A program made the translations under genes and the position numbers. Of a stretch of DNA of 35,188 nucleotides, positions 4,221 to 29,681 are shown in pieces. Within the stretch, counting starts at the first letter, position 1; each line of letters starts with the position of its first letter. Origin of the DNA: Paracoccaceae bacterium (GTDB lineage: Bacteria > Pseudomonadota > Alphaproteobacteria > Rhodobacterales > Rhodobacteraceae); assembly GCA_020447005.1 (NCBI GenBank), contig JAGRDO010000131.1:1-35188 (forward strand), given 5' to 3'. Below the pieces are notes generated by a model. The model was not told where the DNA came from. It saw nothing but the letters and a program-made list of their open reading frames with translations, and ran no database searches.

Positions 4221-4224
4221 GAGA

Positions 4225-5403: not shown

Positions 5404-5426
5404 GGAGAAGCGGCCTTATACCTGAT

Positions 5427-5458
5427 CCCTGTCTGCGCGGGAGCAGGCGCAGACAGGG
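5427..5458 (-). promoter_or_regulatory. Stem-loop between aapJ and aapQ
   Basis: This is a perfect 12-bp inverted repeat: CCCTGTCTGCGC at 5427-5438 pairs with GCGCAGACAGGG at 5447-5458 across an 8-base loop. It is not followed by a T-run in the direction of transcription. Known periplasmic-binding-protein operons often place such hairpins just after the binding-protein gene, where they block 3' exonucleases or partially terminate transcription so that the binding protein is made in excess. That role is inferred here from position and structure. Confidence 0.75.
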
Positions 5459-5476
5459 CTGAAGGGTTGACAGAAC

Positions 5477-6496
5477 TCAGAGCGGCGGCGCGTAGAGAAG
5501 ACCGCCATCGCTGTAGAGCGCATTGAGGTTGCGCGGCAGCTTCAGCGGCGAGCCTTCGCCGGCATTCCGGTCGAAGATCTCGCCGTAATTGCCAACCTGC
5601 TTGATCACCTGATAGGCCCAGTCCTTCGCCAGCCCCAGACCTTCGCCGCCCGCATCGTCGGCGCCCAGCAGACGCTTGACGGTGGGGTCGGTGCTGTTGG
5701 CCAGCATGTCGTCGACATTGGCCGAGGTCACGCCGCTTTCTTCGGCCTGAATCAGCGAATAGACGACCCATTGCACGATATCGCGCCACTGGCCGTCGTC
5801 CTGACGTACCACCGGGCCCATCGGGTCCTTGCTGAAAAGCTGCGGCAGGATCACATAGTCATCGGGGTTCGGAGCCACCGAAGCGCGGATCGAGCTCAGC
5901 CCCGAGGACGACTGCACGGCCACGTCGCAACGCCCGCCGAAGAAGGCGGTGTTGATCTCGTTCTGATCCTCGATGACGACGGGGTTCAGCGTGATGCCGT
6001 ATTTGCCCTGGATGTCGGCGACGACACGCTCGGACGTCGATCCGGGCCGCACGCAGACCGTCGCGGCGTCGAGTTGCGAGACTTCGCTGACACCGAGGGC
6101 CTTGGCCACCATGAGCGCCTGACCGTCGTAGAAGGTCGGCGCGACGAAATCGAGCCCCAGATCGGTGTCGCGCGCCCGCGTCCAGGTGGTGTTCGCCACG
6201 GTCAGATCGACTTCGCCGGTCTGCAGGGCCGTCAGACGCGTCTGGTTGGTCGTCTTCAGAAACTGAACCTTCGAGGCATCGCCCAGCACGGCGGCGGCAA
6301 CCGCACGGCAGGTATCGACGTCAATGCCCATCCATGAGCCGTCGCTGGCGACCGAGGAAAAGCCGGGGCGCGCGCCGTTGACGGCGCATTTCACCGTCCC
6401 GTTCGCCTTGACATTGTCGAGCGTGCCGGCCGAAGCCGCACCGGCCGTGGCCGTGAACGCAAGACAGAGAACTGCAGTCAATTTCATTGGTATCAT
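5477..6496 (-). CDS. aapJ: Polar amino-acid ABC importer, periplasmic binding protein (AapJ type)
   Basis: This 339-residue periplasmic receptor feeds AapQMP. A Sec signal peptide is visible (MKLTAVLCLAFTATAGAASA, cleavage near ASA/GTLDNV). The mature protein starts with the family's TLD-x-VKA-x-G-x-x-KCAVN pattern. It contains ligand-domain segments FLKTTNQTRLTALQTGEVDLTVANTTWTRARD (two stretches) and GVTSANVDDM, as in AapJ/BztA-like receptors, which are longer than HisJ types. Either ATG 6496 (MIPMKL) or ATG 6487 (MKL) could be used: a GGAG sits 3 bases before the first and about 12 before the second, so neither is ideal. The gene begins 18 bases after the gntR stop, placing the regulator at the head of the operon. 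Confidence 0.93.
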   Translation of the reverse strand: MIPMKLTAVLCLAFTATAGAASAGTLDNVKANGTVKCAVNGARPGFSSVASDGSWMGIDVDTCRAVAAAVLGDASKVQFLKTTNQTRLTALQTGEVDLTVANTTWTRARDTDLGLDFVAPTFYDGQALMVAKALGVSEVSQLDAATVCVRPGSTSERVVADIQGKYGITLNPVVIEDQNEINTAFFGGRCDVAVQSSSGLSSIRASVAPNPDDYVILPQLFSKDPMGPVVRQDDGQWRDIVQWVVYSLIQAEESGVTSANVDDMLANSTDPTVKRLLGADDAGGEGLGLAKDWAYQVIKQVGNYGEIFDRNAGEGSPLKLPRNLNALYSDGGLLYAPPL

Positions 6497-6514
6497 CCAC
6501 TCCGTTGTTGGTCG

Positions 6515-7189
6515 TTACGTGACTGGGGCCGCCGCCTTGCTTGTGGTGCTGAGGCGAAGGCGAAGTTCGAGCCCCTTCGCGAGGTGCTCTTTCATGCGGG
6601 ACGCGGCCAGATCCGGATCGCCGGCGACCACGGCCTCGAAGATGTCGCGGTGATCCCGCAGGGTTTTGGCCGCGGTCGGAAACGAGAAATAGCGCGGCAG
6701 GTGAAACGCCAGGCGAAAGCGGGTCCGAAACAGCCGGATCGTCTCGGCGGCCACGTCATTGCCGGAAGCTTCCACCAGACGTTCGTGGAATTCCGTTCCC
6801 GCATCGTCGATATCCGCGGGCGAAAAGCTTTCCAGGTCGCGCAGCATGATCTCGAGCTTGGTGCCGATCTGAAGAAACTCGCGCGAGGGAACCTGTCGCG
6901 CGGCATCTGCCGCGACCAGACACTCAAGCGCGGTACGCACCTGATAGATCCGCCTCAGATCGACTTCTTCGACATTGCGAAGAAAGGTGCCGCGCGCGGG
7001 GCGAACCTCGACCACGCCTTCCTGCTCCAGCCGCCGCAAGGCTTCCCTGACCGGCATCCGCCCGATCCCGAAAAGCTCTGACAGGCCGCGCTCGGACAGC
7101 GGCAGCGTGCGGTCGAAGTCGGATCCGAAGATCCGCTCGACGATCAGATCATAGGCGCGCTGGCGCTCGAATTTGAAAGCTTCGCTCAT
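6515..7189 (-). CDS. GntR-family transcriptional regulator, FCD (FadR/VanR-like) subfamily
   Basis: This 224-residue regulator has an N-terminal winged helix (about residues 5-75: ERQRAYDLIVERIF, then LSERGLSELFGIGRMPVREALRRLEQEGVVEVRPARGTF in shorter blocks) and an all-helical FCD effector domain with His residues in FHERLVEASGN, DHRDIFEA and MKEHL. Such regulators usually respond to small carboxylates or amino acids. ATG 7189 was chosen because homology starts there; ATGs further upstream (7207, 7288) add a non-conserved stretch and would run through the palindromic operator candidate. No strong ribosome-binding site is visible for any choice. It is the first gene of the aap-ltaE operon and probably autoregulates it. 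Confidence 0.88.
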   Translation of the reverse strand: MSEAFKFERQRAYDLIVERIFGSDFDRTLPLSERGLSELFGIGRMPVREALRRLEQEGVVEVRPARGTFLRNVEEVDLRRIYQVRTALECLVAADAARQVPSREFLQIGTKLEIMLRDLESFSPADIDDAGTEFHERLVEASGNDVAAETIRLFRTRFRLAFHLPRYFSFPTAAKTLRDHRDIFEAVVAGDPDLAASRMKEHLAKGLELRLRLSTTSKAAAPVT

Positions 7190-9219: not shown

Positions 9220-9282
9220 CATTTATGCGCAGCGTTCATAAATGACATTACAAATTGCCGTTTTTGCTTCGAGGCGTATGTA
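9220..9282 (+). promoter_or_regulatory. Candidate LysR-type operator and promoter for module 4
   Basis: CATTTATG (9220-9227) and CATAAATG (9237-9244) form a perfect 8-bp dyad with a 9-base spacer, containing a T-N11-A core as in LysR binding sites. Downstream, TTGCCG (9255-9260) and TATGTA (9277-9282) are separated by 16 bases and could be -35 and -10 elements. The stretch is AT-rich compared with its surroundings. The LysR gene at the far end of this operon is the obvious candidate to bind here. Confidence 0.45.
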
Positions 9283-9319: not shown

Positions 9320-10189
9320 ATGTCACAGAGTTCCGCATCAGAGTTGCGACTTGAGGTCGTTCCACCAAAGAAGATCGGCACAAATCTGCTGGCTGCGGTC
9401 TGCATCCTGCTGGTGTTGCTAATCGCGCGTTCATTCTGGCACGGGCAGATTGAATGGTCGGTGGTCAAGGAGAACCTTTTTGCGCGCCCTGTCCTGATCG
9501 GTCTTATCAGCACCATTTCAATGACCTTCGCGGCGATGGGCTTGGGTATTTTTCTCGGGGTCGGCGCCGCCATCATGCGGATGTCCGAGAACCGGGTAAT
9601 CCGATACATCGCCATCGGATATATCTGGTTGTTCCGTGGCGTGCCCGCGCTGTTGCAGCTGCTTTTGTGGTTCAACCTGGCGCTGATCTTCCCGACCATC
9701 GGATTTGGCGATACGTTTTCGGTTCGGACCGTGGACGTGATGACACCGTTTGTCGCCGCGCTTCTTGGGCTGGGTATCCAGCAAGGGGCCTATACGGCTG
9801 AAGTTGTGCGCGCCGGAATCCTGTCGATTGACAAGGGCCAGGCGGAAGCGGCGGCGGCCATCGGGATGACCCGATTTCGCACATTGCAGCGGATTGTGCT
9901 GCCACAGGCGATGCGGGTGATCGTGCCGCCGATCGGGAACGAAACGATCGGCATGATCAAGCTCACGTCGCTGGCGAGCGTCGTCCAGTATTCCGAGATC
10001 CTGCGCAAGGTTCAGGAAGTCTACTACGTGAATTCCAGGGTGATCGAACTCCTTATCGTCGCGACATTCTGGTACATGGTTCTCGTGACGATCTTCTCGA
10101 TCGCGCAGTTCTATATAGAACGCCATTTCTCGCAGGGCTGGGGCGCCGCAAGAACTTCCGAAAAGACCAAGGCGGAGGTTCCCGCATGA
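9320..10189 (+). CDS. Amino-acid-type ABC importer, permease (module 4)
   Basis: This 289-residue inner-membrane permease belongs to the HisM/GlnP family. A membrane helix near residues 20-38 is followed by a short amphipathic stretch, then several further helices. The cytoplasmic EAA loop is clear ([26 protein letters not shown], then [12 protein letters not shown]). The ATG at 9320 follows GGGGGAGG by 4 bases and is preferred over the adjacent TTG at 9317. It is the first gene of the operon and overlaps the ATPase gene by ATGA. As the only permease gene here it probably works as a homodimer. The nearest visible relative is the permease at 27918. Confidence 0.92.
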
Positions 10190-10947
10190 AACCCATCATC
10201 GAAGCCCGCCAGGTGCAAAAGCATTTCGGGCAAAACCATGTCTTGAAAGACATCGAGTTCGCGATGGGAAAGGGTGAGGTCGTATCGATCATCGGACCTT
10301 CCGGATCCGGCAAAAGCACGTTTCTTCGCTGTATAAATCAACTGGAAACGATCGATGGCGGTTATATCAGCGTCAACGGCGAGATCGTGGGATACCGTCG
10401 GCAAGGCAACAAGCTCTATCACTTGTCGGACCGTGAAGTCGCCCGGCAGCGACAGGCCGTTGGCATGGTGTTCCAGCGCTTCAACCTGTTTCCTCACAAG
10501 ACCGTCTTGGGCAATGTCATCGAAGGCCCTGTCGTCGTTCAGCGCCGCACCGTCGCCGAGAGCAAGGACGAAGCAATGGCGCTGCTGGAAACGGTCGGGC
10601 TGGCGGAAAAGGCACTGGCCTATCCCGCGCAGCTCTCCGGAGGACAGCAACAACGGGTTGCGATTGCCCGCAGCCTGGCAATGAAGCCCGACGCGATGCT
10701 TTTCGATGAACCGACCTCTGCCCTCGACCCGGAATTGGTGGGTGAGGTTCTGGGCGTGATGAAGACCTTGGCAGCCATGGGAACAACCATGATCGTCGTG
10801 ACCCATGAAATCGGGTTTTGCCGCGAAGTCGCCAATCGCGTGGCATTCATGGACCAAGGGCGCATCGTCGAGGAGGGAAGCCCGGACGACATCCTGAAAT
10901 CCCCTAAAAATCAAAGGGTAAGATCCTTTGTTTCCGCCGTTCTGTAA
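10186..10947 (+). CDS. Amino-acid-type ABC importer, ATP-binding subunit (module 4)
   Basis: This 253-residue GlnQ/HisP-type ATPase has Walker A GPSGSGKS (37-44), Q-loop Gln97 in [10 protein letters not shown], signature LSGGQQQR (150-157), Walker B MLFDEP (171-176) and switch His207. An insertion between beta strands ([16 protein letters not shown], about 69-84) is shared in part with the ATPase at 28871 but absent from AapP. The start overlaps the permease stop by four bases. Confidence 0.93.
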
Positions 10948-10981
10948 GGAACAATCAAAACCAACCGAGGATTATATCGAC

Positions 10982-11800
10982 ATGAAAAACCTCCTTGCTT
11001 CAGCCGCAGTACTGGCGGCTTTGGTGACGGGCGCTTCGGCAGAGCCAACGCTGCTGACTGAGGGCGAGCTGCGTATTCTCACCAATCCTATCTATCCCCC
11101 GATCGAGTATGTGAACCCGGATTCGGGCACCCTCGACGGTCTGGATATCGATCTGGCGAACGCCATTGCGGGAAAGCTTGGCCTGCAAACCGTTTTTGTC
11201 GCTTCGAGCTTCGAGAGCCTGCTCAGCGGTCTTGAAACCGGACGCGGCGACATGATCATGTCCGGGATGAGTGACAACGTGAAACGCCAGGAAAGCGTCG
11301 ACTTCGTCGATTATCTGACGTCTGGCCCAATACTGTTCACGACTACGGCGAACGGTGCCAGCTACCATGCCACCAAGGATTTTTGTGGTAAGATCATCGC
11401 GGGCAGCCGCTCAACCTCCTTCGGCGATAATGTGAATGCGTGGTCCGACGCCAATTGCGTGGCGAACGGTTTGCCGGCAATCACTTTCGAAGGCACCGAG
11501 GATTCAAACGCGGCGCGCCTCGGTTTGCGTCAGGGCCGGTATGACGGGGTCGTGCAGGGTATTGAAACCATCGCCTGGCAGATGCGGGTCGAGCCTGACA
11601 CTTATGTCATGGTGGGCGAACCGCTCCTGAGCAATGACGTGTTTGGGATGGCTTTCAGCAAGGCAAACCCGGACCTGCGCGACGGCGTTGCAAAGGCGCT
11701 CGATGAGCTGATCGCTTCTGGCGAATATGCCGAGATCCTGGCAAAGTGGGGGCTGGACCACAATGCGGTCGAGAAGGCCGTCGTGAACGGCGTGAAATAA
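10982..11800 (+). CDS. Amino-acid-type ABC importer, periplasmic binding protein (module 4)
   Basis: This 272-residue family-3 solute-binding protein has a Sec signal peptide (MKNLLASAAVLAALVTGASA, cleavage before EPTLL). The mature part shows the family features: LRILTNPIYPPIEYVNPDSG, a LDGLDIDLANAIAGKLG helix and SGMSDNVKRQESVDFVDY, whose Arg normally binds the ligand alpha-carboxylate. The ATG at 10982 is chosen because the signal peptide begins there; a GAGG lies about 12 bases upstream. Upstream in-frame codons overlap the ATPase gene and add no homology. The ligand is unknown but should be an amino-acid-like compound. Confidence 0.92.
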   Translation: MKNLLASAAVLAALVTGASAEPTLLTEGELRILTNPIYPPIEYVNPDSGTLDGLDIDLANAIAGKLGLQTVFVASSFESLLSGLETGRGDMIMSGMSDNVKRQESVDFVDYLTSGPILFTTTANGASYHATKDFCGKIIAGSRSTSFGDNVNAWSDANCVANGLPAITFEGTEDSNAARLGLRQGRYDGVVQGIETIAWQMRVEPDTYVMVGEPLLSNDVFGMAFSKANPDLRDGVAKALDELIASGEYAEILAKWGLDHNAVEKAVVNGVK

Positions 11801-11807
11801 ATCGATC

Positions 11808-11832
11808 GTGCGCCGGCTTGTCGCCGGCGCAC
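11808..11832 (+). promoter_or_regulatory. Stem-loop after the module 4 binding-protein gene
   Basis: GTGCGCCGGC (11808-11817) and GCCGGCGCAC (11823-11832) form a perfect 10-bp stem with a 5-base loop, 7 bases after the stop of the binding-protein gene. No T-run follows. Partial termination or mRNA protection, raising binding protein over the downstream enzymes, is the likely role by analogy with other transporter operons. Confidence 0.65.
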
Positions 11833-11856
11833 ATATCTTCGAAATCTGGTGTCCCC

Positions 11857-12741
11857 ATGCAGTCCCGCACGTCCAACCCGCAATTGCGGGACCCTTTTTT
11901 GTGGCCGCACGGAGCCCGCTCGGCTGTCGGTCTGGCCTTCGATCTGGATGGTCCAACAGGCGACGCCATGCTGGACGGGTCGCTGCGGCAGAACTTGCGC
12001 TATTTTTCCGAAGGGGCATATGGGCCGTTTCGCGCCGTGCCGCGACTGCTGGACCTGCTGGCCCGTTATGAGCTTCCGGCGACCTTCTTCATCCCTACCT
12101 GGGTGGTTGAACACTGGACGGATGTCTGCATCAGAATTCTGACGGAAGGCCACGAAGTCGCGTATCACGGCCATCGCCACGAATACTTCCGCGACCTGGA
12201 ACCCGCGCGCCAGCTGGAGGTGATGCAACAGTCACGTGACGTGTTCAAGTCTCGCCTTGGCGTTGCTCCGCAGGGGTTCCGCACCCCCTCGGGCGACTGG
12301 ACGGCCGAGACGCCGGGCCTGCTTCGAGATTTCGGGATCCGCTATTCCAGCTCCATGCGGGGCGAGGACCGTCCCTATTTCCACCCCGCGCCTGAAGGAT
12401 CCGTGCCCCTTGTCGAACTGGCGGGGCGCTGGGATATGGATGACTATACCTCGCTTGCCTATTTCGAGGACCCGCCCTTTCCGGTCGGACATGATCGCAT
12501 AAGCGAGTATCGGGCAGTAGGCGGCAACTGGTGCGCCGAGTTCGAGGGCTATCACGCCGAAGGCTTGTTTTGGACGACGATCCTGCACCCGAAGGTAAGC
12601 TGCAAGCCCGCGCGACTGCCGATACTCGAGAGGCTGTTTTCGACAATCCGCCAGCACGATGACGTATGGGCAACCAAATTGAACGAGGTAGCGGGATGGG
12701 CCTTGCAGAGGGCCGGCTTCGCCACCGCCGGGGGGCAATGA
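11857..12741 (+). CDS. Polysaccharide deacetylase/PuuE-like hydrolase, first copy
   Basis: This 294-residue NodB-homology (carbohydrate esterase 4) protein resembles the single-domain, signal-less branch that includes peptidoglycan deacetylase-like HpPgdA and the allantoinase PuuE. Candidate catalytic/metal residues are Asp29 and Asp31 in LAFDLDG and the H-x3-H pair His104/His108 in YHGHRHEY. GFRTPSGDW (140-148) is the Arg/Pro loop and ILHP near the C-terminus supplies the last His. The absence of a signal peptide argues against cell-wall work and for hydrolysis of a small cytosolic amide. ATG 11857 is used because homology begins shortly after; its ribosome-binding site is weak. The gene overlaps the next deacetylase gene. 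Confidence 0.85.
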   Translation: MQSRTSNPQLRDPFLWPHGARSAVGLAFDLDGPTGDAMLDGSLRQNLRYFSEGAYGPFRAVPRLLDLLARYELPATFFIPTWVVEHWTDVCIRILTEGHEVAYHGHRHEYFRDLEPARQLEVMQQSRDVFKSRLGVAPQGFRTPSGDWTAETPGLLRDFGIRYSSSMRGEDRPYFHPAPEGSVPLVELAGRWDMDDYTSLAYFEDPPFPVGHDRISEYRAVGGNWCAEFEGYHAEGLFWTTILHPKVSCKPARLPILERLFSTIRQHDDVWATKLNEVAGWALQRAGFATAGGQ

Positions 12742-13616
12742 TGACGCATAGGTTTCATTGGCCCGAAGGCAAGACCTGCGCCGTGATGATCAGCATCGCT
12801 TTTGACGACGGGCTGGATGCCACGGCGCGGGCGCCCGATCTGCCAACGCGCGAGAAAAGCCATTCTGTCTGGAAATACGGCGCGGCGCGTGGCGTGGACC
12901 GCATGCTTGAATGTCTGGACGCGGCGGATTTGCCGGCGACATGGTTCCTGCCCGGCGCCATAGCCCGGACCCAGGGCGCCGCCGTCTCGCGGATTTCGGC
13001 GGCGCAACACGAAATCGCCTGTCATGGTTGGGGGACAGAGCGCCTGGACCAGATCCCGGTTTCCGAGCGGGCGGCGCTTCTGTCGAGGGCGCGGGGGGCG
13101 CTGCAGGAGGCGTCGGGCCAGGCCGTGCGCGGTTTTCGCCTGCCGTATGGCAACTGGCCCGTTGACTTCGCAGCGCAACTCCTCGCGGCTGGTTTCGGCT
13201 GGTCGCATACGTTGCAGGGGGACGACTGGCCCTATCTTCATCCGGAAGGGATCGTCGAAATACCATTCCACAGCGAAACCGAGGACCGGCCATATTTCCA
13301 ATTCAACTTCGCTCCGGCCTTTCCGACGGGTCTGAGCCGCATCCCCTCCTATGAGGGCGTTCTTGGGAACTGGATCGCCGAATTCGATGCCTGTCACCGC
13401 TATGGCCTGTGTCTTTCGGTGCTGCTGCGCCCCGAATGGACGGGCACGCCTGGCCGGATCGGTTTGATGCGGAGGTTGATCGCCCATATGCGCGAACGCG
13501 ACGACGTCTGGTTCGCGACGGGATCAGAGGTCGCGGAGTGGACGAGGACGCAAGGCCTTTACCCCGAGGACAATCATCCGCTGAATGTGTACAGCCGTTA
13601 CCTGAAAGAGGCCTGA
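12738..13616 (+). CDS. Polysaccharide deacetylase/PuuE-like protein, second copy with altered metal motif
   Basis: This 292-residue protein has the same fold as its neighbour: SIAFDDG (Asp23, Asp24), DLPATWFLPG, GFRLPYGNWP and DDWPYLHP are shared. The usual H-x3-H is reduced to His96 in CHGWGTERL, with Thr at the second His position, and the C-terminal LHP has become LRP. PuuE-type metal-independent allantoinases also have a HGW motif and lack the metal triad, so this copy may be a metal-free amidase or a non-catalytic partner of the first copy. The start is ATG 12738, overlapping the previous stop (ATGA) with a G-rich run before it; a second ATG follows directly. Confidence 0.83.
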   Translation: MMTHRFHWPEGKTCAVMISIAFDDGLDATARAPDLPTREKSHSVWKYGAARGVDRMLECLDAADLPATWFLPGAIARTQGAAVSRISAAQHEIACHGWGTERLDQIPVSERAALLSRARGALQEASGQAVRGFRLPYGNWPVDFAAQLLAAGFGWSHTLQGDDWPYLHPEGIVEIPFHSETEDRPYFQFNFAPAFPTGLSRIPSYEGVLGNWIAEFDACHRYGLCLSVLLRPEWTGTPGRIGLMRRLIAHMRERDDVWFATGSEVAEWTRTQGLYPEDNHPLNVYSRYLKEA

Positions 13617-13620
13617 AGCC

Positions 13621-14994
13621 ATGTCTCAATCCACTCTTCTGCAGCTGGCCGACCTGGTCAGCGGCACGCGCTTTGCCGATTTCGATGACGCGACACGGCA
13701 CAAGGCGAAATTGCATCTGCTCGATACGATCGGTGTCGCCATGGCCGGCTCTGCCTCGGCAGAAACGGCGCTTGGCCTTGCCGCCTTTGCGCCGGTATCG
13801 GGCGCAAGCCGCATCTGGGGCACCGAACATTCCAGCGACGCGCGAACCGCCGCCCTGCTGAACGGGATCTCGGCCCATGCGTTAGAGCTGGACGATTCCG
13901 GTGGCTGCGACCACTCCGGCGCCGTTGTCGTGCCGGCGGTTCTGGCTTCTCTTCCATACCTGCAACGACGGGTTGCCGGATCAGAGTTGTTGCAAGCCAT
14001 CCTGATCGGTTACGAGGTCGCCCGCCGTGTGCTGGAAGCCAGCGGCGGATATGAAACCCATAATGGGCTGGGCTGGCATTCGACGGGGACATGTGGCCCC
14101 TTCGGTGCTGCGGCAGCGGTTGGGGTTCTGAAGCGGCTGGACGCACCCAAACTTGCAATGGCATTGGCGATCGCGGGATCGATGGCCGGCGGCACGTGGG
14201 CGTTCATCCATAATGGCAGCCAAACCAAAAAACTCCACTCCGGCCGTTCGGCGGAAGGCGGCGTGATCGCGGCGGATCTGGCCGCCGTGGGTTTTTCCGG
14301 CCCGGACGCGCTTTTTGAGGACGTTTGGGGCGGTTTCTTTTCAACCTTTATGCGCGTTGCAAGCGAACCGGCCGCGTTACTCGAAAACTGGGGCGACTTC
14401 TGGCGTCTGAACCGGTGCTCGATCAAACCGCATGCAACCTGCCGCGGAACGCACTCGTCCATCGACGCGTTGGATCTCGTTCTCAGGCGCGAGAACCTGC
14501 GCCCGGAAGACGTGGCAAGGGTGGACATCCGGATTAGCAGATTCCAGCACGGAATGTGCGGCGGAACCAGTCTGCGGAGCCGGGCAGAGGCACAGATGAG
14601 CATACCTTACGCGTTGGCCGCCAGGTTAGAGTATGGCACGGTGGGGCTGGATCAACTGGAAGCGCCAGCCTGGTCTTCACCCAAAATTGCACGCTGGATC
14701 GAACGGTTCGACCTGAGGATCGATCCGAATATGGCGGACGAGGACGAGCCCGCCATCGCGGTCACGACCGTCGACAATTCGAGACATGAGGTGACGGTTG
14801 CGTTTCCGCTGGGGGCGCCGCAGAACCCGTTGAGCGAAGACCGCATCATCGCGAAATTCGAGGCATTGTGCGGCCGGGTAATGACGCGCGACAGGACCGA
14901 AGCCCTGCGTGACCTCATCCTCGCGATAGAAAACTCCTCAGACGTGGCTCCGCTGCTCGACCTGATGCGTTGCGCCCCCCTTTCGAAAGGATGA
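13621..14994 (+). CDS. MmgE/PrpD family protein
   Basis: The 457-residue length is normal for the MmgE/PrpD family, which contains 2-methylcitrate dehydratase, iminodisuccinate epimerase and cis-aconitate decarboxylase. Recognisable blocks are HALELDDS (86-93), the HSTGTCGPFGAAAAVG segment from His153, KKLHSGRSAEGG (203-214) and GGFFSTFMR. No prp genes (prpB, prpC) are nearby, so propionate metabolism is unlikely. Together with the ArgH-like lyase next door, a role as epimerase or hydro-lyase on an aspartate/succinate-type imino acid is the more attractive reading, but it is inference. It starts four bases after the previous stop. Confidence 0.88.
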   Translation: MSQSTLLQLADLVSGTRFADFDDATRHKAKLHLLDTIGVAMAGSASAETALGLAAFAPVSGASRIWGTEHSSDARTAALLNGISAHALELDDSGGCDHSGAVVVPAVLASLPYLQRRVAGSELLQAILIGYEVARRVLEASGGYETHNGLGWHSTGTCGPFGAAAAVGVLKRLDAPKLAMALAIAGSMAGGTWAFIHNGSQTKKLHSGRSAEGGVIAADLAAVGFSGPDALFEDVWGGFFSTFMRVASEPAALLENWGDFWRLNRCSIKPHATCRGTHSSIDALDLVLRRENLRPEDVARVDIRISRFQHGMCGGTSLRSRAEAQMSIPYALAARLEYGTVGLDQLEAPAWSSPKIARWIERFDLRIDPNMADEDEPAIAVTTVDNSRHEVTVAFPLGAPQNPLSEDRIIAKFEALCGRVMTRDRTEALRDLILAIENSSDVAPLLDLMRCAPLSKG

Positions 14995-14998
14995 TCCC

Positions 14999-16381
14999 AT
15001 GGCAGAAAAACAAGCCTGGTCGCCACTTTTTCGCGAACCGGTTTCGGACGACTTCAATGACTTTCACGAATGCCTTGAACAGGACAAACGGATTGCGTTG
15101 CAGGACGTGAAGGGGAGTATGGTTCACGCGGCGATGTTGACCCGTGCCGGCATCCTGACCTTCGAGGAGGGGGCCGCCCTGCAGGAAGGCCTGTCGCAGA
15201 TCGCCACCGAGATGGGTGCAGGCACTTTTCCATGGGACAAAGCCCATGAGGATGTTCACATGAATGTCGAGATGCGCCTGACAGCACTGATAGGTCACGT
15301 CGGAAAGAAACTGCACACGGCGCGGTCACGGAATGACCAGGTTGCGACGGGTATCCGGCTCTACGCGCGGGAAGAGCTGGATTCCCTTGCCGCAGAGCTG
15401 AAGGCCCTCATCGCCGGTTTTTGCGATCTTGCCGAACGCCATGCAGATACGATCATGCCGGGATTTACCCATCTTCAGGTTGCGCAACCGGTGACGTTTG
15501 GCCACCACATGATGGCCTATGCAGAGATGTTCTTGCGGGATCTTCAACGTGTGACGCAAGCGCGGGAACGGCTTAACATCTGCCCGCTGGGCGCCGCGGC
15601 CCTCGCCGGGAGCGGATATCCGATCGATCCGGAATACAGCGCGGCGGAACTGGGGTTTTCTTCCGCATTTCGCAACTCGCTCGATGCTGTTTCCGACCGG
15701 GACTATGTTGCGGACATTTGTCACACCGGAGCGGTGATCATGGCGCACCTGTCGCGTTTGTCCGAAGAGATCATCCTGTGGACCACGCCAATGTTTGATT
15801 TCATCGAAATCGGCGATGCATTCTGCACAGGATCCTCGATCATGCCTCAGAAGCGCAATCCGGATCTCGCGGAACTGGTTCGGGGTAAGGCCGCCCGTGT
15901 GCACGGCAACCTGACCACTTCGATTGCACTGATGAAGGCCCAGCCTTTGGCATTCAACAAGGACCAGCAGGAATCGAAGCCGCCATTGACGGACACGTTC
16001 GAAAATGTTCGTCCGGCCGTTCGCATCTTCACCCAGATGCTGGGGACCGTCCGGCCCCACGCGGAACGGATGCTTGACGCCTCTGACACCGGGTACTCTA
16101 CCGCCACGGATCTGGCGGATTACCTCGTAAGGAAGGGCATGCCTTTCCGTGATGCCCACCACGTCGTGGCGGCAACCGTCGGAATGGCGCGCGACCGCAA
16201 CTGTCGCAGCCTTGCCGAGCTTTCGCTCGTGGATCTGCAGACCCATAGCGGGCTAATCGGAGAGGACGTTTTTTCCGTTCTGACAGTCGCTGGATCGGTC
16301 GCATGTCGTTCGCATCGCGGCGGGACTGCGCCCTCTCAGGTTCATCGCGCCATTGCAGAGGTTCGCAGGCTTATCGCTTGA
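14999..16381 (+). CDS. Argininosuccinate lyase-like C-N lyase (fumarase/aspartase superfamily)
   Basis: This 460-residue superfamily member has ARSRNDQVAT (108-117), PGFTHLQVAQP (154-164), PLGAAALAGSGYPID (196-210), SLDAVSDRDYV (227-237) and the catalytic serine loop TGSSIMPQKRNPD (277-289). It departs from housekeeping ArgH: the N-terminal GGRF is missing (WSPLFREP instead), and the ArgH motif YN-(K/R)-D-x-QEDKE reads FNKDQQESKPP. EDDS lyase and iminodisuccinate lyase belong to this superfamily, so elimination of fumarate from an N-substituted aspartate is the likely reaction. ATG 14999 lies a few bases after AAAGGATGA. Annotating it simply as argH for arginine synthesis would be risky. Confidence 0.85.
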   Translation: MAEKQAWSPLFREPVSDDFNDFHECLEQDKRIALQDVKGSMVHAAMLTRAGILTFEEGAALQEGLSQIATEMGAGTFPWDKAHEDVHMNVEMRLTALIGHVGKKLHTARSRNDQVATGIRLYAREELDSLAAELKALIAGFCDLAERHADTIMPGFTHLQVAQPVTFGHHMMAYAEMFLRDLQRVTQARERLNICPLGAAALAGSGYPIDPEYSAAELGFSSAFRNSLDAVSDRDYVADICHTGAVIMAHLSRLSEEIILWTTPMFDFIEIGDAFCTGSSIMPQKRNPDLAELVRGKAARVHGNLTTSIALMKAQPLAFNKDQQESKPPLTDTFENVRPAVRIFTQMLGTVRPHAERMLDASDTGYSTATDLADYLVRKGMPFRDAHHVVAATVGMARDRNCRSLAELSLVDLQTHSGLIGEDVFSVLTVAGSVACRSHRGGTAPSQVHRAIAEVRRLIA

Positions 16382-16450
16382 TCCCCCATAACGGGTTGCA
16401 TCTGCAGTCGTTGCCAAGATTATAGATGCGACCCGGAGGGAAACTTGGAC

Positions 16451-17374
16451 ATGCCCGCACCTAACGACAGTCAGCCAAGTTTTGACCTGAACCGACTTCC
16501 ATCGCTGCAGGCATTACACAGTTTCTATGTTGTGGCGCAAACGCACAGCTTTACCAAGGCAGCGACCGAATTGCTCTTGAGCCAGAGCGCGATCAGCCGC
16601 CAGATCCAGCAACTTGAGGATCACCTGGGTTGCTCGCTTTTCGAAAGGCATACACGCAAGGTCATTCTCTCCGAACAGGGCATGGCACTCGTTCCCGTCG
16701 TGGAAGGACTTCTCAGTTCCCTCAGATCGACATTTGATGCGACGCGACATGGAATTCAATCCATTACCGTCCGGATGCCACCGACATTTGCCAGACGCTG
16801 GTTTCTTCCCCGCCTTGCGAATTTCAAGAGATCCTGCCCCACCCTTGAGGTGATCATCGATACAGCGTGGTTCGCACGCCCGTCTTTCTCAACCGGCGAT
16901 ATCGATGTCCTTATCACATATGGTGGGGGCAACTGGCCGGGAATGGAAGCGCTGCATCTTCTCACCGAGCGTCTTACACCAATGTGCGCGCCCAGCCATT
17001 TGTCGCTTCTTGGAGAACCGCCGGTCTTGGGTAACCTGGCCAACTGTGTTCTCTTGCATTCCAATATTCGTCACAGCGATTGGTCGCTGTGGCTGAACGC
17101 TGAGGGCGGATACGACATTCGCGGAATATCCAATCAGGTGTTCGATACCCAGGATTTCGCCTTCACGGCTGCCGCGAATGGGTATGGCGTGACGATGGGC
17201 GATCTCAGCCTGGTCGCGGACGATCTTAGTACGGGCATTCTCGTGGCGCCTTTCAAGCGGGTGATCGAAACAGGATACGGGTATTTCGCGCTTTTTCCCG
17301 CCCGACGCTCCATTCCGGACAAAGTCAGTATATTCCTGTCCTGGCTCAGGACTGAGGCGGGCAGCGAAAGTTAA
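16451..17374 (+). CDS. LysR-family transcriptional regulator (GcvA-like)
   Basis: The 307-residue protein has an N-terminal helix-turn-helix (LPSLQALHSFYVVAQTHSF, KAATELLLSQSAISRQIQQL, about 17-60) and a two-lobed effector domain. The opening LNRLPSLQAL pattern is that of the GcvA/AmpR group. ATG 16451 lies 10 bases after GGAGGG; TTG 16445 is an alternative start. It is the last gene of module 4 on the same strand, so it probably controls that operon through the dyad at 9220-9244. LysR regulators usually need a pathway intermediate as coinducer. Confidence 0.9.
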   Translation: MPAPNDSQPSFDLNRLPSLQALHSFYVVAQTHSFTKAATELLLSQSAISRQIQQLEDHLGCSLFERHTRKVILSEQGMALVPVVEGLLSSLRSTFDATRHGIQSITVRMPPTFARRWFLPRLANFKRSCPTLEVIIDTAWFARPSFSTGDIDVLITYGGGNWPGMEALHLLTERLTPMCAPSHLSLLGEPPVLGNLANCVLLHSNIRHSDWSLWLNAEGGYDIRGISNQVFDTQDFAFTAAANGYGVTMGDLSLVADDLSTGILVAPFKRVIETGYGYFALFPARRSIPDKVSIFLSWLRTEAGSES

Positions 17375-17471: not shown

Positions 17472-18209
17472 TCATTTGCCGCGAAATTCCACCATGCGGG
17501 GATGGTTGATCGAGTGCAGGAACTCCATCGGGCGGTCATCCACATCCAGGGACACCGCCTGCAACAACAGGCACGATGTTTCGCGCCCCAGTTCCAACAG
17601 GCTCGCCTCGCGCGGGCTGGCCGATGTCATGCTGATCAACCCTTCACCGCCATACATCCTTATGCCGTATCTTTCGCGCAGGATCTCGTAGAATGACATC
17701 TTTCCCAGAAGATCGTCGGCCACCAGCCCGGGGACACGTGCGTCCGCCATATGCGTCGTCTCGATGCAGAAGGGCTGGCCGTTCACGGTGCGCAGCCGCC
17801 GCATGACCACGACCGGATCGCTCTGACGGATCCCCAGCCGTTCGGCCAGCCTCAGATCGGCCGCGTGGCGTTCGAACACCAGAAGCTTGCTTCCCGGTAC
17901 ACCGCCGCATTGGCGCACGATTTCTGAAATTCCATGCGCGAACATTCCGTCCGACATCGGCCGCCGGATCACGGCGGTGGGCAGGAAGGTTCCCGCCGTA
18001 CCGCGCCGTTCCAGCACGCCGAGGTCTACCAAGTGAGAGATTGCCTTGCGCATCGTCATGCGGCTGATGCCGCTTTGCTCGGAAAGATCCCGCTCGGACG
18101 GGATGCGGTCGCCGGCGCGGTAACCCGGTCCCTTTATCAGGTCGAGTATGAACTGCCCGGCCCGTTCATGGACCATCTGCCCACCCCCGTTAGAGCCCGA
18201 TTCGTCCAT
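17472..18209 (-). CDS. GntR-family transcriptional regulator, UTRA (HutC/FrlR-like) subfamily
   Basis: This 245-residue regulator has an N-terminal winged helix (GYRAGDRIPSERDLSEQSG, ISRMTMRKAISHLVDLGVLERR, about residues 28-75) and a C-terminal UTRA ligand domain (PVVVMRRLRTVNGQPFCIET, SFYEILRERYGIRM, LLLQAVSLDVDDRPMEF). UTRA regulators bind sugar phosphates or amino acids, and FrlR of frl operons belongs to this subfamily. ATG 18209 has AGGGAG 7 bases upstream. It is divergent from the frlB-like gene and is the likely local repressor, with fructosamine 6-phosphate as a plausible inducer. Confidence 0.92.
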   Translation of the reverse strand: MDESGSNGGGQMVHERAGQFILDLIKGPGYRAGDRIPSERDLSEQSGISRMTMRKAISHLVDLGVLERRGTAGTFLPTAVIRRPMSDGMFAHGISEIVRQCGGVPGSKLLVFERHAADLRLAERLGIRQSDPVVVMRRLRTVNGQPFCIETTHMADARVPGLVADDLLGKMSFYEILRERYGIRMYGGEGLISMTSASPREASLLELGRETSCLLLQAVSLDVDDRPMEFLHSINHPRMVEFRGK

Positions 18210-18413
18210 CTGGTTCTCCCTCTATGCTGCGCCTGCATTGTGGTTGGTCTATAGGCGCGGCACCGCACCGGGTGCAGTGCTGCCGTCCTGTCATTGAACC
18301 TGTCGCATCTCCCGCCCCGGTGATGGACTATACCAATTTCTCTGTCAACAACGATCCTTTCGTAATGCGCATGCAGAAAAACAGACGAATAGGGGGCCAT
18401 TCAGCGAATCCAA

Positions 18414-18470
18414 TTGACTTTCGGTATATATACCAAGAACTGTATTGGTATGTTCCAATGGATACCGATA
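18414..18470 (+). promoter_or_regulatory. frl promoter-operator region
   Basis: TTGACT (18414-18419) is a good -35 element. The perfect 12-bp palindrome GGTATATATACC (18423-18434) lies just downstream of it, and TTGG-N6-CCAA (18445-18458) with GGTAT...ATACC (18447-18466) follows. The arrangement suits repression by the divergent UTRA regulator, whose family binds TGGTATATACCA-like dyads. The -10 element is not obvious. A related TGG-N6-CCA element (18324-18335) lies nearer the gntR gene. AGGAG at 18470-18474 is the ribosome-binding site of the first frl gene. Confidence 0.55.
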
Positions 18471-18479
18471 GGAGACGTA

Positions 18480-19493
18480 ATGGCGACCGACGTGGACAGG
18501 CAGGGCATGCTGGCCGGGCTCGAAAAGTCGAAGAAGGTAATGGAGGACGCGGCCGAGTTCGGGCGTTCGATCGCAGACAAGGTCGACAAGATATATCTGG
18601 TCGGATGCGGCGCACCGAACCGGATCATGCTTGGGCTGGAATACTGGATTCAGTATTACAGCCCTTCGACCGAGGTGCGACGTTACTTCCCGGCCGAATT
18701 CATGGCGCAGGACCCGAAGCGCTTTGACGAGCGGACCTTTGTTCTTCTGGGTTCAAAATCCGGGACGACCCCGGAAACCGTTGCGGCGGCGGAATTCGTC
18801 AAGGATCGGCCCTGCATAACCGCCAGTGTCACCCAGACCGCCGACCTGCCCCTGGCCAAGGCCGTGCAGACCGCGTTTCTGATGGGCGAAACGGATCAGG
18901 CCCATACCGGGATGTTCATGGTCATGCAGGCGCTGATCGGTGGGTTCCTTGCGGCAAAGGACGGCTGGAACCTGCATCCAAAACTGATGAGATCGCTCGC
19001 CGCGCTGCCCGAGGCGATGGTCGAGACCCAGCTTGCGACCGAGGCGCGCGCCGCCGAGGAAGCGCGCCTGCTCAAGGACGATCGCAACATCTACCACGTT
19101 GCGTCGGGACCGATGTTCAATACCGCCTATGTGATCGGCGTCTGCATCCTGATGGAAATGCAATGGCTGCATTCCTACCCGATCGAGGCGGCCGAGTTCT
19201 TTCACGGTCCCTTCGAGATCCTCGACGCCAATACGCCTTTCATAATGATGCTGGGCGAAGATCCGTCCCGCCCGTTGATGGAACGGGTGCTGCGTTTCGC
19301 GAAGAAGCATACCGAGCGGATCTATGTCTACGACTCAAGGGATTACGCCATGACCGGCATCGATCCCGAAATCCGGCCGATCGTTGCGCCCTACATCGTC
19401 GAGACCGCGCTTTACCGGATATGCGTGCGGCTGGCGGTTTGGCACAACCATCCGCTTTCGACCCGTCGCTATATGTGGAAGTCGGAATACTGA
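18480..19493 (+). CDS. frlB: FrlB-like fructosamine 6-phosphate deglycase (SIS domain)
   Basis: FrlB/FraB enzymes split fructoselysine (or related fructosyl-amino acid) 6-phosphate into glucose 6-phosphate and the free amino acid in the cytosol. The 337-residue product has two SIS domains: IYLVGCGAPN (about 39-48), VLLGSKSGTTPET (sugar-phosphate loop), VASGPMFNTAY, and the catalytic stretch EAAEFFHGPFE with Glu239 and His242. The length matches FrlB (about 340) rather than GlmS (about 600). ATG 18480 follows AGGAG by 5 bases; an in-frame upstream extension would run through the operator and is rejected. The neighbouring FrlD-like kinase supports the assignment; the exact amino acid of the substrate is not determinable. 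Confidence 0.87.
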   Translation: MATDVDRQGMLAGLEKSKKVMEDAAEFGRSIADKVDKIYLVGCGAPNRIMLGLEYWIQYYSPSTEVRRYFPAEFMAQDPKRFDERTFVLLGSKSGTTPETVAAAEFVKDRPCITASVTQTADLPLAKAVQTAFLMGETDQAHTGMFMVMQALIGGFLAAKDGWNLHPKLMRSLAALPEAMVETQLATEARAAEEARLLKDDRNIYHVASGPMFNTAYVIGVCILMEMQWLHSYPIEAAEFFHGPFEILDANTPFIMMLGEDPSRPLMERVLRFAKKHTERIYVYDSRDYAMTGIDPEIRPIVAPYIVETALYRICVRLAVWHNHPLSTRRYMWKSEY

Positions 19494-19496
19494 ACG

Positions 19497-20372
19497 ATGG
19501 CGCGCGTGCTCGGCATCGGTGACAATACCGTCGACATCTATGTCGATCAGGGGGTGCAATACCCCGGCGGCAATGCCGTGAATGTCGCGGTGATGATGCA
19601 TCGACTGGGCGCCAGCGCGGCCTATCTCGGCGCTGTCGGGTCGGACTTTCTGGGGGATCTGGTGCATGACGCGCTGGAGGCCGAGGGGATTGACCTGTCG
19701 CGGCTGAGGCGGACCGGGGGCGGCAATACATGGTCACGTATCCGCCACGACGGCAATGATCGCGTTTTTGACGGCTCAAACCCGACAAGGCGTGACACCT
19801 ACGCCCTGACCGATGACGATTACCTCTGGATGGGCGGGTTCGATCTTGCCCATTCCAGCGTCTATTCAAGGCTGGAGCCCGATCTGCCGCGGCTTTCGGC
19901 GGCCTGTACGCTGCTCAGTTTCGACTACTCATCGGAATACACGGACGAATATATCGCGCGGACCGCGCCCGATATAGACATAGCCTTTCTCTCCGCCTCT
20001 GACCTCGACGATCAGGGCTGCGACAGGCTGGCCCGCTCTGTCGCGGCACGGGGACCGGAACTGGTCGTTATCACTCGCGGGGCCAAAGGCGCCCTTGCGT
20101 TCGAGGCTGGCCGGGCAATGCACCAACCGGTCCTGCCGGCCAAAGTCGTTGATACGCTGGGGGCCGGCGACGGTTTCATTGCGGGTTTGCTCAACGAACG
20201 TCTCGCCGGCGGCGATCTTGCCGGTCAGCTTGCGGCCGGGGCGGGATATGCCGCGCGCGTCTGCGAACAGCGCGGCGCCTTCGGCCATGAAATTGCTATA
20301 CGCCCGGGTCAACCGGGGCTGAAACGCCCGGCGGCCAACGCCGGCAAACCGACCATTTTTCCAACTCGATGA
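19497..20372 (+). CDS. frlD: FrlD-like fructosamine 6-kinase (PfkB/ribokinase family)
   Basis: FrlD phosphorylates an imported fructosyl-amino acid at C6, giving the substrate of FrlB. The 291-residue PfkB protein opens with LGIGDNTVDIYVDQGVQYPG, as in FrlD, and has GGNAVNVAVMMHRLGA (substrate-side GGN motif), LGAVGSDFLG and the C-terminal DTLGAGDGFIAG motif with catalytic-base Asp225. It starts three bases after frlB. The C-terminal end (GLKRPAANAGKPT) is somewhat longer than usual. Its stop overlaps the ribosome-binding site of the next gene, indicating tight coupling. Confidence 0.88.
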   Translation: MARVLGIGDNTVDIYVDQGVQYPGGNAVNVAVMMHRLGASAAYLGAVGSDFLGDLVHDALEAEGIDLSRLRRTGGGNTWSRIRHDGNDRVFDGSNPTRRDTYALTDDDYLWMGGFDLAHSSVYSRLEPDLPRLSAACTLLSFDYSSEYTDEYIARTAPDIDIAFLSASDLDDQGCDRLARSVAARGPELVVITRGAKGALAFEAGRAMHQPVLPAKVVDTLGAGDGFIAGLLNERLAGGDLAGQLAAGAGYAARVCEQRGAFGHEIAIRPGQPGLKRPAANAGKPTIFPTR

Positions 20373-20382
20373 GGAGAAAGTG

Positions 20383-21669
20383 ATGAAATATTCCCGTCTT
20401 GCCGGCCTGCTTATTGGCACAGCAGCAGCCTTCGGTTTTTCCGGCGCGGCCTTCGCCGAGGTGACGCTGAGTTTCCTGCACAAGTGGCCGGAACCCGAAA
20501 ACATGGCTTATTTTGAACCCGCGGTGGCCGAATTCGAAGCCGCGAACCCTGACATCAAGATCAAGATGGAAGCCGTGGCCGACGAACCCTACAAGGACAA
20601 GATCCGCGTTCTTATGGGATCGAACGAGGTGCCCGACGTCTTCTTTTCGTGGTCGGGAGAGTTCGGCAAGAACTTTTCGCGCAACGGCCGCGCGCTTGAC
20701 ATCACCGATGCCGTTTATGGCGGCGACTGGAAGGCCAGCTTCCCCGAAGCGGCCCTTGAGCCTTTCAAATACGAGGGCAAGCTTTACGGTGTTCCGATCA
20801 ATGTCGACGCGAAATTCATGCTCTACAACAAGAAGCTTTTCGCGGATAACGGCATCGGGGTGCCCGCGACTTACGAAGATTTCGTTGCCGCCTGCCACAA
20901 GCTGAAAGACGCCGGTATCGAACCGATCGCCTTTGGCAACCAGTATCCATGGGCTGCGTCGCATTACATCGGTGAACTGAACGCGAAACTGGTGCCTAAC
21001 GAGGTGCGGCTGGACGATTACAACCTGACCAGCCCGGCGGACACGCTTTATACCCATCCGGGCTATACGCAGGCGCTGGCCGACTTTCAGAAACTGAACG
21101 ATGACGGCTGTTTCAACCGCGGGTCCAACGCACTGACCCATTCCATCGCGCGCGGCAGTTTCCTCGCCGGTCGCAATGCGATGATGTACATGGAACTGGT
21201 GGAGTTCAATCAGGTCACCGCAGACTCGCAACTGGGTCAGGATGGCTGGGGCTTCTTTCCGCTGCCGCCGATCTCGGGCGGCGCGGGGGATCCCGGGTTG
21301 CTGACGGGTGCGCCGGACGGCTTCATGATCTCGGCCGCCACCGAGCACCCGGACGAGGCGATCCGCTTCCTCAAGTTCCTGACATCGGCCGAACAGGCGC
21401 AGAAATATGTGAAGATCACCGGCATGACCAGTTCCGTCAATGGCTCGGTCACGCCAGACAATGCCAGCGAACAGGCCATCGAGGGGCTGAAGGCGATCGA
21501 TGCCGCCTCGGGGCTGGCGCTCTGGCTGGATACCGATATGGACGCACGCTCGACCGAGGTGCTGCTTGCCGGGTCTCAGGCGCTTCTGAACGGGACCGAC
21601 ACGCCCGACGCCATCATGGCGCGCGTGCGTGAAACCGCGCTTGCGGTGCAGAAAGAACGCGGGAACTGA
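20383..21669 (+). CDS. Carbohydrate-type ABC importer, binding protein (FrlO-like)
   Basis: This 428-residue family-1 extracellular solute-binding protein has a signal peptide MKYSRLAGLLIGTAAAFGFSG ending near AFA/EVTLS (written here in part). The mature part shows the MalE-like pattern: LSFLHKWPEPENM, FEAANPDIKIKMEAV, FFSWSGEFG, YEGKLYGVPINVDAKFMLYN, GVPATYEDFVAAC, WGFFPLPPI and FLKFLTSAEQAQKYV. ATG 20383 has GAGGAG 6 bases upstream and is preferred to GTG 20380. In Bacillus subtilis, FrlO is of this class and binds fructosamines, so a similar ligand is inferred. Confidence 0.9.
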   Translation: MKYSRLAGLLIGTAAAFGFSGAAFAEVTLSFLHKWPEPENMAYFEPAVAEFEAANPDIKIKMEAVADEPYKDKIRVLMGSNEVPDVFFSWSGEFGKNFSRNGRALDITDAVYGGDWKASFPEAALEPFKYEGKLYGVPINVDAKFMLYNKKLFADNGIGVPATYEDFVAACHKLKDAGIEPIAFGNQYPWAASHYIGELNAKLVPNEVRLDDYNLTSPADTLYTHPGYTQALADFQKLNDDGCFNRGSNALTHSIARGSFLAGRNAMMYMELVEFNQVTADSQLGQDGWGFFPLPPISGGAGDPGLLTGAPDGFMISAATEHPDEAIRFLKFLTSAEQAQKYVKITGMTSSVNGSVTPDNASEQAIEGLKAIDAASGLALWLDTDMDARSTEVLLAGSQALLNGTDTPDAIMARVRETALAVQKERGN

Positions 21670-21694
21670 TCCGCGAGCAACCGGGGGAAACAGG

Positions 21695-22576
21695 ATGAAA
21701 GCATCATTGCTCAGTAGGTATGCTCCCTACCTGTTCCTGTTTCCCTCGCTTCTGCTTCTTGTCGCATTCGTCTATGCGCCCGCCCTCGAAAACATGGTGT
21801 ACAGCCTTTTTTCGTGGAGTTCGGTGCGAACCGAACAGCGTTTTGTCGGCCTCGACAACTATCGCGAGCTGTTCGCCAACCCCGTCTTCTGGCGCGCGCT
21901 TGTCAACAACGTGCTTTACGCCGTCATCTCCATCATGTTCCAGGTCATCGTGGCATTGGTGATTGCGGCGGTTCTGGTCGGAGGTATTATCGGCCCACGC
22001 CAGCGCACGTTGTTCCGCACCGCTTTTTTCCTGCCTTCCATCCTGCCGGTGACTGTGGTCGGTCTGCTTTGGCAACTGATCTATCAGCCCACCATCGGGT
22101 TGATAGATCAGGTGCTTTATTCCACCGGCCTGCAAGGTCTGTCACACGTCTGGCTGGGCGAAGAAGCAACCGTGATGATTTCGGTTATCATGGTCTCGCA
22201 GTGGCAATGGACCGGCTACATGATCGTTCTGTTCATGGTTTCGATCCAGGCCATACCGGACGACCTTTATGAAGCGCTGAAGATGGAAGGCGCCAACCGC
22301 ATCCAGCAGTTTTTCCACATCACCGTACCGGGGGTTCGGGAATCCACGCTGATCCTTGCCATCATCACCATTTTTGGCGCCTTCAAGGTATTTGACATCG
22401 TCTGGGTAATGACCGCCGGCGGCCCGAACAACGCCTCTGAAGTGCTGGGAACACACATGTACCGCTCGGCTTTTCGCAACGATGTGTCGGGCTATGCGGC
22501 GGCCGTCGCCACGGTGATCTTCCTTATCACGCTGGCGATCGGCGCCGTCCAGATCCGCCTTCAGCGGCAGGACTGA
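21695..22576 (+). CDS. Carbohydrate-type ABC importer, permease (MalF/FrlN-like)
   Basis: This 293-residue inner-membrane protein has about six helices: PYLFLFPSLLLLVAFVYAPA near the N-terminus, then segments around NNVLYAVISIMFQVIVALVI, LFRTAFFLPSILPVTVVGLL and later ones. The EAA loop reads DDLYEALKMEGANRIQQFFHITVPGVRES in two parts. The ATG at 21695 has CAGG/GGGGG upstream; the longer open frame starting inside the binding-protein gene is not supported by homology. It forms the channel with the next gene product. Confidence 0.9.
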   Translation: MKASLLSRYAPYLFLFPSLLLLVAFVYAPALENMVYSLFSWSSVRTEQRFVGLDNYRELFANPVFWRALVNNVLYAVISIMFQVIVALVIAAVLVGGIIGPRQRTLFRTAFFLPSILPVTVVGLLWQLIYQPTIGLIDQVLYSTGLQGLSHVWLGEEATVMISVIMVSQWQWTGYMIVLFMVSIQAIPDDLYEALKMEGANRIQQFFHITVPGVRESTLILAIITIFGAFKVFDIVWVMTAGGPNNASEVLGTHMYRSAFRNDVSGYAAAVATVIFLITLAIGAVQIRLQRQD

Positions 22577-22579
22577 GCC

Positions 22580-23428: not shown

Positions 23429-23443
23429 GGCAGGAGGCAAGCC

Positions 23444-25958: not shown

Positions 25959-25970
25959 GCGCGGCCCCTT

Positions 25971-26020: not shown

Positions 26021-26053
26021 ATTGATTCCTGAATTTCCAAACTCAGGGGCAAC

Positions 26054-29662: not shown

Positions 29663-29681
29663 ACCCCGGGGAATAGGTGTC

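Follow-up and report, generated by a model that had tools for sequence, protein, structure and literature searches.

What compound would call for an ATP-binding cassette (ABC) importer, two paired hydrolases, an MmgE/PrpD protein and an additional relative of argininosuccinate lyase (ASL, ArgH), all beside one LysR regulator gene? Eight genes for these products lie on the + strand at 9320-17374 of the window, by which we mean the whole 35,188-nucleotide stretch of Paracoccaceae DNA analysed here (JAGRDO010000131.1; contig 26 of the 196-contig, 3.5-Mb assembly GCA_020447005.1, rated 91% complete). We propose, with moderate confidence, that they form an operon for the LysR-controlled catabolism of an imported, argininosuccinate-like N-substituted aspartate, in which the compound would be imported, opened at an amide or ring, isomerised and cleaved by an ArgH-type lyase.

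An earlier note on this DNA, made from the letters alone, had placed eight co-oriented genes here, and their position, their orientation and the families it assigned agree with our gene calls and Pfam matches. With start codons of our choosing, its description of tiny gaps or overlaps suits four of the seven junctions, namely the 4-base overlaps of permease/ATPase and PD1/PD2 (the two hydrolases) and the 4-base gaps of PD2/MmgE and MmgE/lyase. It is loose for the other three, which are gaps of 34 bases after the ATPase, 56 bases after the binding protein and, widest of all, 69 bases before the LysR gene. These genes also cluster in distant bacteria, which excludes a chance grouping and bears out the note's view of a single unit; the dedicated importer that it proposed is likewise supported.

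Similarity to PD2 recruited seven plasmid loci (seven of the 11 records with the best PD2 matches: H1-H5, H9 and H11) and 23 genome loci, so that the presence of PD2 in these is by construction. All eight genes occur in the window's order in loci of Rhizobium, unclassified Rhizobiales, Ensifer and Ochrobactrum A44, with L041 and L043 cut by contig ends. Loci of Burkholderia, Caballeronia, Paraburkholderia (two) and Brucella pecoris contain lyase, importer, PD1, PD2 and MmgE, and in three of these five loci the lyase gene precedes that of the permease. Among the seven Pseudomonas loci, six contain lyase, importer, PD1 and PD2. Apart from the window, 33 of 36 loci have a complete set of three importer genes, and contig ends account for two of the three exceptions. 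Among further neighbours in 19 loci, no family recurred in at least three apart from LysR types, open reading frames (ORFs) of putative major facilitator superfamily (MFS) proteins and likely out-of-frame shadows of the core genes. Two clusters appear to be decaying: in L046 (B. cytisi) the PD1, MmgE and lyase genes are broken, and L051 (Pseudomonas sp. FEN) retains only PD2 and a PD1 fragment. Two binding-protein genes are found in L030, L031, L046, L048, L049 and L128, and L031 has two permease-ATPase sets; these doubled importer parts might reflect import of the compound in two forms.

As a less biased survey, we ran a PD1 profile against 398 evenly drawn Pseudomonadota genomes, scoring the best six initial candidates per genome here and in the survey that follows. 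Seven genomes matched, our own included. All seven have PD2 and MmgE adjacent, and lyase and importer are present in six; in the seventh (L129) the contig starts at PD1. Among 394 genomes of the organism's own family only its own genome matched; P. seriniphilus, a cluster carrier, is absent from that survey's output and presumably was not drawn. We found no close PD2 relative among 100 relatives of the genome, the 13 PD2 matches at E <= 1e-20 being paralogues that are 28-40% identical. A set this rare and scattered fits horizontal spread. Searches of CC-licensed PubMed Central papers returned none on MmgE, polysaccharide deacetylase and argininosuccinate lyase together, and none joining argininosuccinate lyase, polysaccharide deacetylase, amino acid ABC transporter and rhizosphere.

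The lyase scores 555.7 bits to the argH model TIGR00838, well above the curated cut-off, and 421.2 bits against Thermus ArgH versus 213.7 bits against ethylenediaminedisuccinate (EDDS) lyase. We rejected the idea that it is the housekeeping ArgH because the genome has another, on contig 167. The same holds more widely: in all 16 genomes examined a housekeeping ArgH lies apart from the cluster, whose own lyase is present in 15, in one of them as a broken gene. In a tree of 60 rows, from which 21 near-identical rows had been dropped, the cluster lyases form two clades, A and B, each with 100/100 support and both inside ArgH. The A type (window, rhizobia, Ochrobactrum A44 and L131) is sister to Pseudomonas/Paraburkholderia ArgH (100/96), and the B type (Burkholderiaceae, Pseudomonas, B. 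pecoris and others) has an actinobacterial ArgH as its sister (100/99). Long branches lead to EDDS lyase and three further rows, whose placement is unsure. The earlier note had linked the lyase to EDDS lyase, a kinship that did not hold up: the score is half that for ArgH, and EDDS lyase, a long branch itself, falls outside ArgH in the tree.

A joint A+B clade was rejected by the approximately unbiased (AU) test (delta log-likelihood 106.7, p 3e-10), and the trees indicate two independent entries of ArgH lineages into one and the same gene set. When five partner proteins are concatenated and their tree is rooted at the midpoint, B. pecoris, whose lyase is of the B type, comes out as sister to the A-group, a placement in keeping with exchange of the lyase within a set already assembled. 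The simplest history would be that an A-type lyase displaced a B-type lyase within an existing cluster. Two unrelated ArgH copies in the same role suggest a reaction near that of ArgH itself, which would split an N-substituted aspartate into fumarate and an arginine-like leaving group.

We compared residues, numbered as in duck delta-crystallin, across 18 A, 15 B and 39 housekeeping ArgH rows, excluding four long-branch ArgH-like rows. The counterparts of S114, R115, N116, T161, H162, R238, S283, K289, N291, E296, D89 and K331 are kept in every row of all three groups. H162, E296 and the fumarate half of ASL are discussed in the available part of PMC2779060. Though the catalytic residues are kept, others near-invariant in housekeeping ArgH are not. 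None of the 39 housekeeping rows varies at S29, D33, Y323, Q328 or D330. Cys replaces S29 in 18/18 A and 6/15 B rows. All A rows have Phe for Y323 and Ser for D330 and the A type retains D33 and Q328, while all 15 B rows have Tyr, Phe or His for D33 and Ser, Ala or Gly for Q328. No list of arginine-contacting ArgH residues was found in the available text of CC-licensed PubMed Central papers.

For the MmgE/PrpD protein, a profile of 11 cluster proteins, compared with solved structures, matched iminodisuccinate epimerase (2hp0) best at 199.7 bits, followed by Bacillus subtilis IRG1 (178.7), cis-aconitate decarboxylase (169.3) and PrpD (39.5). Asp91, His98, His153, Lys203, Lys269 and Cys274 are invariant in 23/23 cluster proteins and, in our reading of the alignment, line up with active-site residues discussed in the available part of PMC7347537.

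PD1 and PD2 are paralogues whose profiles both match best the uncharacterised Mycobacterium smegmatis structure 3rxz, followed by HpPgdA (3qbu), 1z7a and PuuE (3cl6) in slightly varying order. AlphaFold2 models (10 rows each; mean predicted local distance difference test score (pLDDT) 76.7 for PD1 and 77.8 for PD2) retrieved the same group with Foldseek: 3rxz and PuuE 3cl6, and HpPgdA 3qbu for PD1. With PuuE and HpPgdA rather than secreted polysaccharide deacetylases as their best named relatives, both belong to the PuuE-type branch of NodB-fold proteins, as the earlier note had expected. Neither reaches the level of PuuE allantoinase proper: they score 53.6 (PD1) and 60.9 (PD2) bits, far under the NCBIfam cut-off of 424.6. 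The DxD and HxxxH residues of PD1 (D29, D31, H104 and H108) are invariant in 29/29 proteins. In PD2, His occupies the H104 column in 18/31 proteins and the H108 column in 7/31, the window's protein having Thr at the latter. Inspection of both N termini by eye revealed no hydrophobic leader, which makes a cytosolic amide or cyclic-amide hydrolase more likely for each than a secreted deacetylase. The PuuE substrate is small, and the authors of HpPgdA also thought a small molecule likelier for their enzyme, according to the available parts of PMC3084791 and PMC10967932.

The solute-binding protein has R102 and G193 invariant in 17/17 rows. Asp occupies the G193 position in four of the five solved chains shown; the fifth, which has two domains, has Asp at that position in one domain and one column earlier in the other.

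Regulation was addressed by aligning the DNA 5′ of the permease gene in eight loci, which gave the dyad ATTTATG-N9-CATRAAT. The window's copy, ATTTATGCGCAGCGTTCATAAAT, ends 76 bases 5′ of the permease start. As a palindromic pattern it is the only site in the 3.5-Mb assembly, and the reversed control has none. We scanned 37 cluster loci, the window included, with a looser pattern whose seventh base is free (it is A in L033, where the dyad is one base off). The looser dyad lies 5′ of 18 of the 19 A-group clusters, with the lyase-less P. seriniphilus cluster counted in. The exception, L041, begins inside the binding-protein gene and has no upstream DNA, so that every A-group cluster with upstream DNA has the dyad (18/18). 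None of the remaining 18 cluster loci has it (L129, among these, begins at PD1 and also lacks upstream DNA), nor does it occur in 438 kb of other loci, and 12 upstream gaps of B-type clusters showed no evident inverted repeat in common. Scans for sigma-70 promoters and terminators did no better than shuffled controls. The dyad is a candidate operator of the operon's LysR protein and would offer a handle on the inducer through a promoter reporter.

From gene content, conservation and protein comparison we infer the substrate, the activities and the order of the steps. The importer would take up a compound that is probably closed as an amide or lactam and lacks a free alpha-amino group in the usual position. 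Its amide bonds would be opened or removed by PD1 and PD2, and MmgE could correct the configuration of the succinyl carbon or otherwise isomerise the substrate. The repurposed ArgH would then eliminate fumarate and free arginine or a close analogue as the amine. The earlier note had proposed uptake of an N-substituted aspartate, amide removal, epimerisation and C-N cleavage. Of this scheme the operon, the importer, the hydrolases and the nearest MmgE profile stand, the tie to EDDS lyase is lost and the epimerase is weakened. Neither outcome that the note named as refuting it was observed: the genome has another argH besides the cluster lyase, and the genes recur together in other bacteria.

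Several observations weigh against our interpretation. MmgE is missing from 7/7 Pseudomonas loci, and thus is not indispensable everywhere. The five Pseudomonas genomes without a cluster MmgE encode only distant relatives elsewhere, at 235-245 bits compared with 627-799 for cluster proteins; the step appears dispensable, as a stereo-correction could be. Nor is the lyase indispensable everywhere, since the P. seriniphilus cluster has seven genes and no lyase, and none was found on its 599,725-bp plasmid, the chromosome lying outside the search. The pocket changes in the lyase are not enriched: they affect 3/18 chosen positions in either type, against changes throughout the 18 A rows at 12/131 near-invariant ArgH columns and in >=90% of B rows at 30/131, and the residue changes should not be over-read. 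Two further arguments depend on residue roles that we assume. S29, D33, Y323 and Q328 presumably lie near the arginine half of the ligand, and we take the Asp at binding-protein position 193 to hold the alpha-ammonium group of an amino acid; if so, the absence of that Asp would be in keeping with a ligand carrying a substituted or ring-closed amino group. Lastly, a search with the window's MmgE sequence alone ranks IRG1 (119.8 bits) above the epimerase 2hp0 (112.2 bits), and this change of order makes the epimerase's lead small. His99 and Tyr145 are the two bases proposed for that epimerase (PMC7347537, available part), and in 23/23 cluster proteins the counterpart of Tyr145 is Asn148, while that of His99 is kept as His98. 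'Epimerase' is therefore the nearest label for MmgE rather than an established function, and the note's likening of the two holds by profile and loses ground by single sequence and by residue.

The same facts bear on what else the operon could do. MmgE might be a dehydratase or decarboxylase in a pathway that converts a tricarboxylate-like side product, with no stereo-correction involved. The counterpart of Tyr145 is also missing in mammalian cis-aconitate decarboxylase (PMC7347537, available part) and the single-sequence search puts IRG1 first, but the epimerase has the highest profile score, and we find this explanation quite improbable. Catabolism of polyaminocarboxylates of the iminodisuccinate, EDDS or aspergillomarasmine type, the earlier note's own idea, would draw on that profile match, on the pairing of a lyase with an MmgE protein and on the soil or rhizosphere origin of several hosts. 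It is nevertheless rather unlikely: the lyase lies within ArgH and not with EDDS lyase on its long branch, the counterparts of H162, R238, D89 and K331 are ArgH-like instead of the Q, W, R and E of EDDS lyase, and two amide hydrolases would have no evident need.

Could the lyase instead be a true second argininosuccinate lyase in an operon that scavenges plain argininosuccinate, with the hydrolases on a side task? The strong ArgH score, the D33 and Q328 retained in the A type and the arginase and ornithine cyclodeaminase genes beside the lyase-less P. seriniphilus cluster are in keeping with this. We still judge it unlikely, since S29, Y323 and D330 are replaced throughout the A rows and D33 and Q328 throughout the B rows, all five being kept in housekeeping ArgH, and since PD1 and PD2 stay adjacent even in loci without MmgE or lyase. 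The pathway might also run in the synthetic direction, the lyase joining an amine to fumarate and the importer retaking a secreted N-succinyl product. The ASL reaction is reversible (PMC2779060, available part), an MFS protein is encoded 3′ of PD2 in the P. gingeri locus, and mutually related ORFs (putative MFS) lie directly 3′ of the cluster in L050, L055 and L129. But no exporter was seen in the remaining 16 of the 19 loci compared, the importer is complete in nearly all loci, and the hydrolases suit breakdown; we give this direction only a slim chance. A more specific form of our catabolic proposal is that the operon salvages spontaneously cyclised argininosuccinate or a close analogue. Argininosuccinate cyclises spontaneously, and PD1 and PD2 might open two ring types, MmgE fix a racemised aspartyl carbon and ArgH free fumarate and a guanidino compound. 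We regard this version as a long shot; the term argininosuccinic anhydride was not found in CC-licensed PubMed Central papers.

The retention of the set in alpha-, beta- and gammaproteobacteria, together with two independently borrowed ArgH copies, suggests selection for specific C-N cleavage of a yet unnamed compound, which could be a nutrient or a waste product. It also suggests that some proteins above the argH equivalog cut-off may serve something other than arginine biosynthesis.

Table 1. Features of the operon and its upstream dyad, in window coordinates.
Feature	Positions	Strand	Basis
Dyad ATTTATG-N9-CATRAAT, candidate LysR operator	9221..9243		conserved upstream of A-group clusters
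ABC permease, polar amino-acid type	9320..10189	+	PF00528 72.5 bits; TIGR01726 60.9 bits, cut-off 42.2
ABC ATPase	10186..10947	+	PF00005 114.9 bits; best NCBIfam ehuA 318.5 bits, below cut-off 345.4
Family-3 solute-binding protein	10982..11800	+	PF00497 108.9 bits
PD1, PuuE/HpPgdA-type NodB-fold hydrolase	11857..12741	+	PF01522 77.9 bits
PD2, hydrolase paralogous to PD1	12738..13616	+	PF01522 61.8 bits
MmgE/PrpD protein	13621..14994	+	PF03972, PF19305
ArgH-type C-N lyase, A type	14999..16381	+	Lyase_1 and ASL_C2 (Pfam); TIGR00838 555.7 bits, cut-off 279.5
LysR regulator, GcvA-like	16451..17374	+	PF00126, PF03466; GcvA model 234 bits, below cut-off 288

Other gene groups were seen around the operon and elsewhere. 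The arginase and ornithine cyclodeaminase genes of P. seriniphilus occupy L027 2876-4855 and adjoin the sole otherwise intact cluster without a lyase. The four enzymes of the operon had no match in PADLOC, and a defence system was rejected. Adjoining the operon, window 17472-24502 holds a fructosamine-type group with a GntR-UTRA regulator and a sugar ABC importer, whose SIS protein is nearest fructoselysine 6-phosphate deglycase (123.5 bits, cut-off 430) and whose PfkB kinase is nearest fructoselysine 6-kinase (207.5, cut-off 247). Window 24624-30854 encodes a MocR-like regulator, to which PtsJ is closest and EhuR next, an amino-acid ABC importer and an M20 amidohydrolase whose nearest matches are CpsA and DoeB2; ORF 26054-27055 has no Pfam match. 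The same genome contains a second MmgE-plus-lyase group (L089, G000 contig 62, 856-12001). Its lyase (5329-6720) scores 467.8 bits to the 3-sulfopropionylcysteine synthase XcbD, below the cut-off of 600, and its MmgE lies at 3936-5312. A DapA-like protein (152.9, below 206.15) and a pyridoxal phosphate (PLP) enzyme (394.1, above the cystathionine beta-lyase cut-off of 365.9) are also encoded, as are, by eye, a GntR regulator, TctA- and TctC-like transport proteins and a LysR protein. This group may degrade a sulfur-linked succinate, our guess at the substrate being S-succinocysteine or the like.

How does the operon compare with known systems? PD1 and PD2 have PuuE and HpPgdA as their best named profile and fold matches after 3rxz, yet are only 20-26% identical to them in fold alignments. 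PD1 differs further from PuuE in keeping the metal residues, since PuuE binds no metal and HpPgdA does (PMC3084791 and PMC10967932, available parts). The lyase shares the ancestry and catalytic residues of ArgH, but is a second copy beside the housekeeping one and has some ArgH-invariant residues replaced. With EDDS lyase (6g3d) it has the fumarase/aspartase superfamily in common, and it differs in lying inside ArgH, where EDDS lyase falls outside in the tree. Agrobacterium tumefaciens BY6 reportedly degrades iminodisuccinate with an epimerase and a stereoselective C-N lyase. The operon resembles that system in pairing an MmgE/PrpD protein, whose profile best matches 2hp0, with a C-N lyase, and departs from it in having an ArgH-derived lyase, two hydrolases and an ABC importer alongside, and Asn in place of Tyr145.

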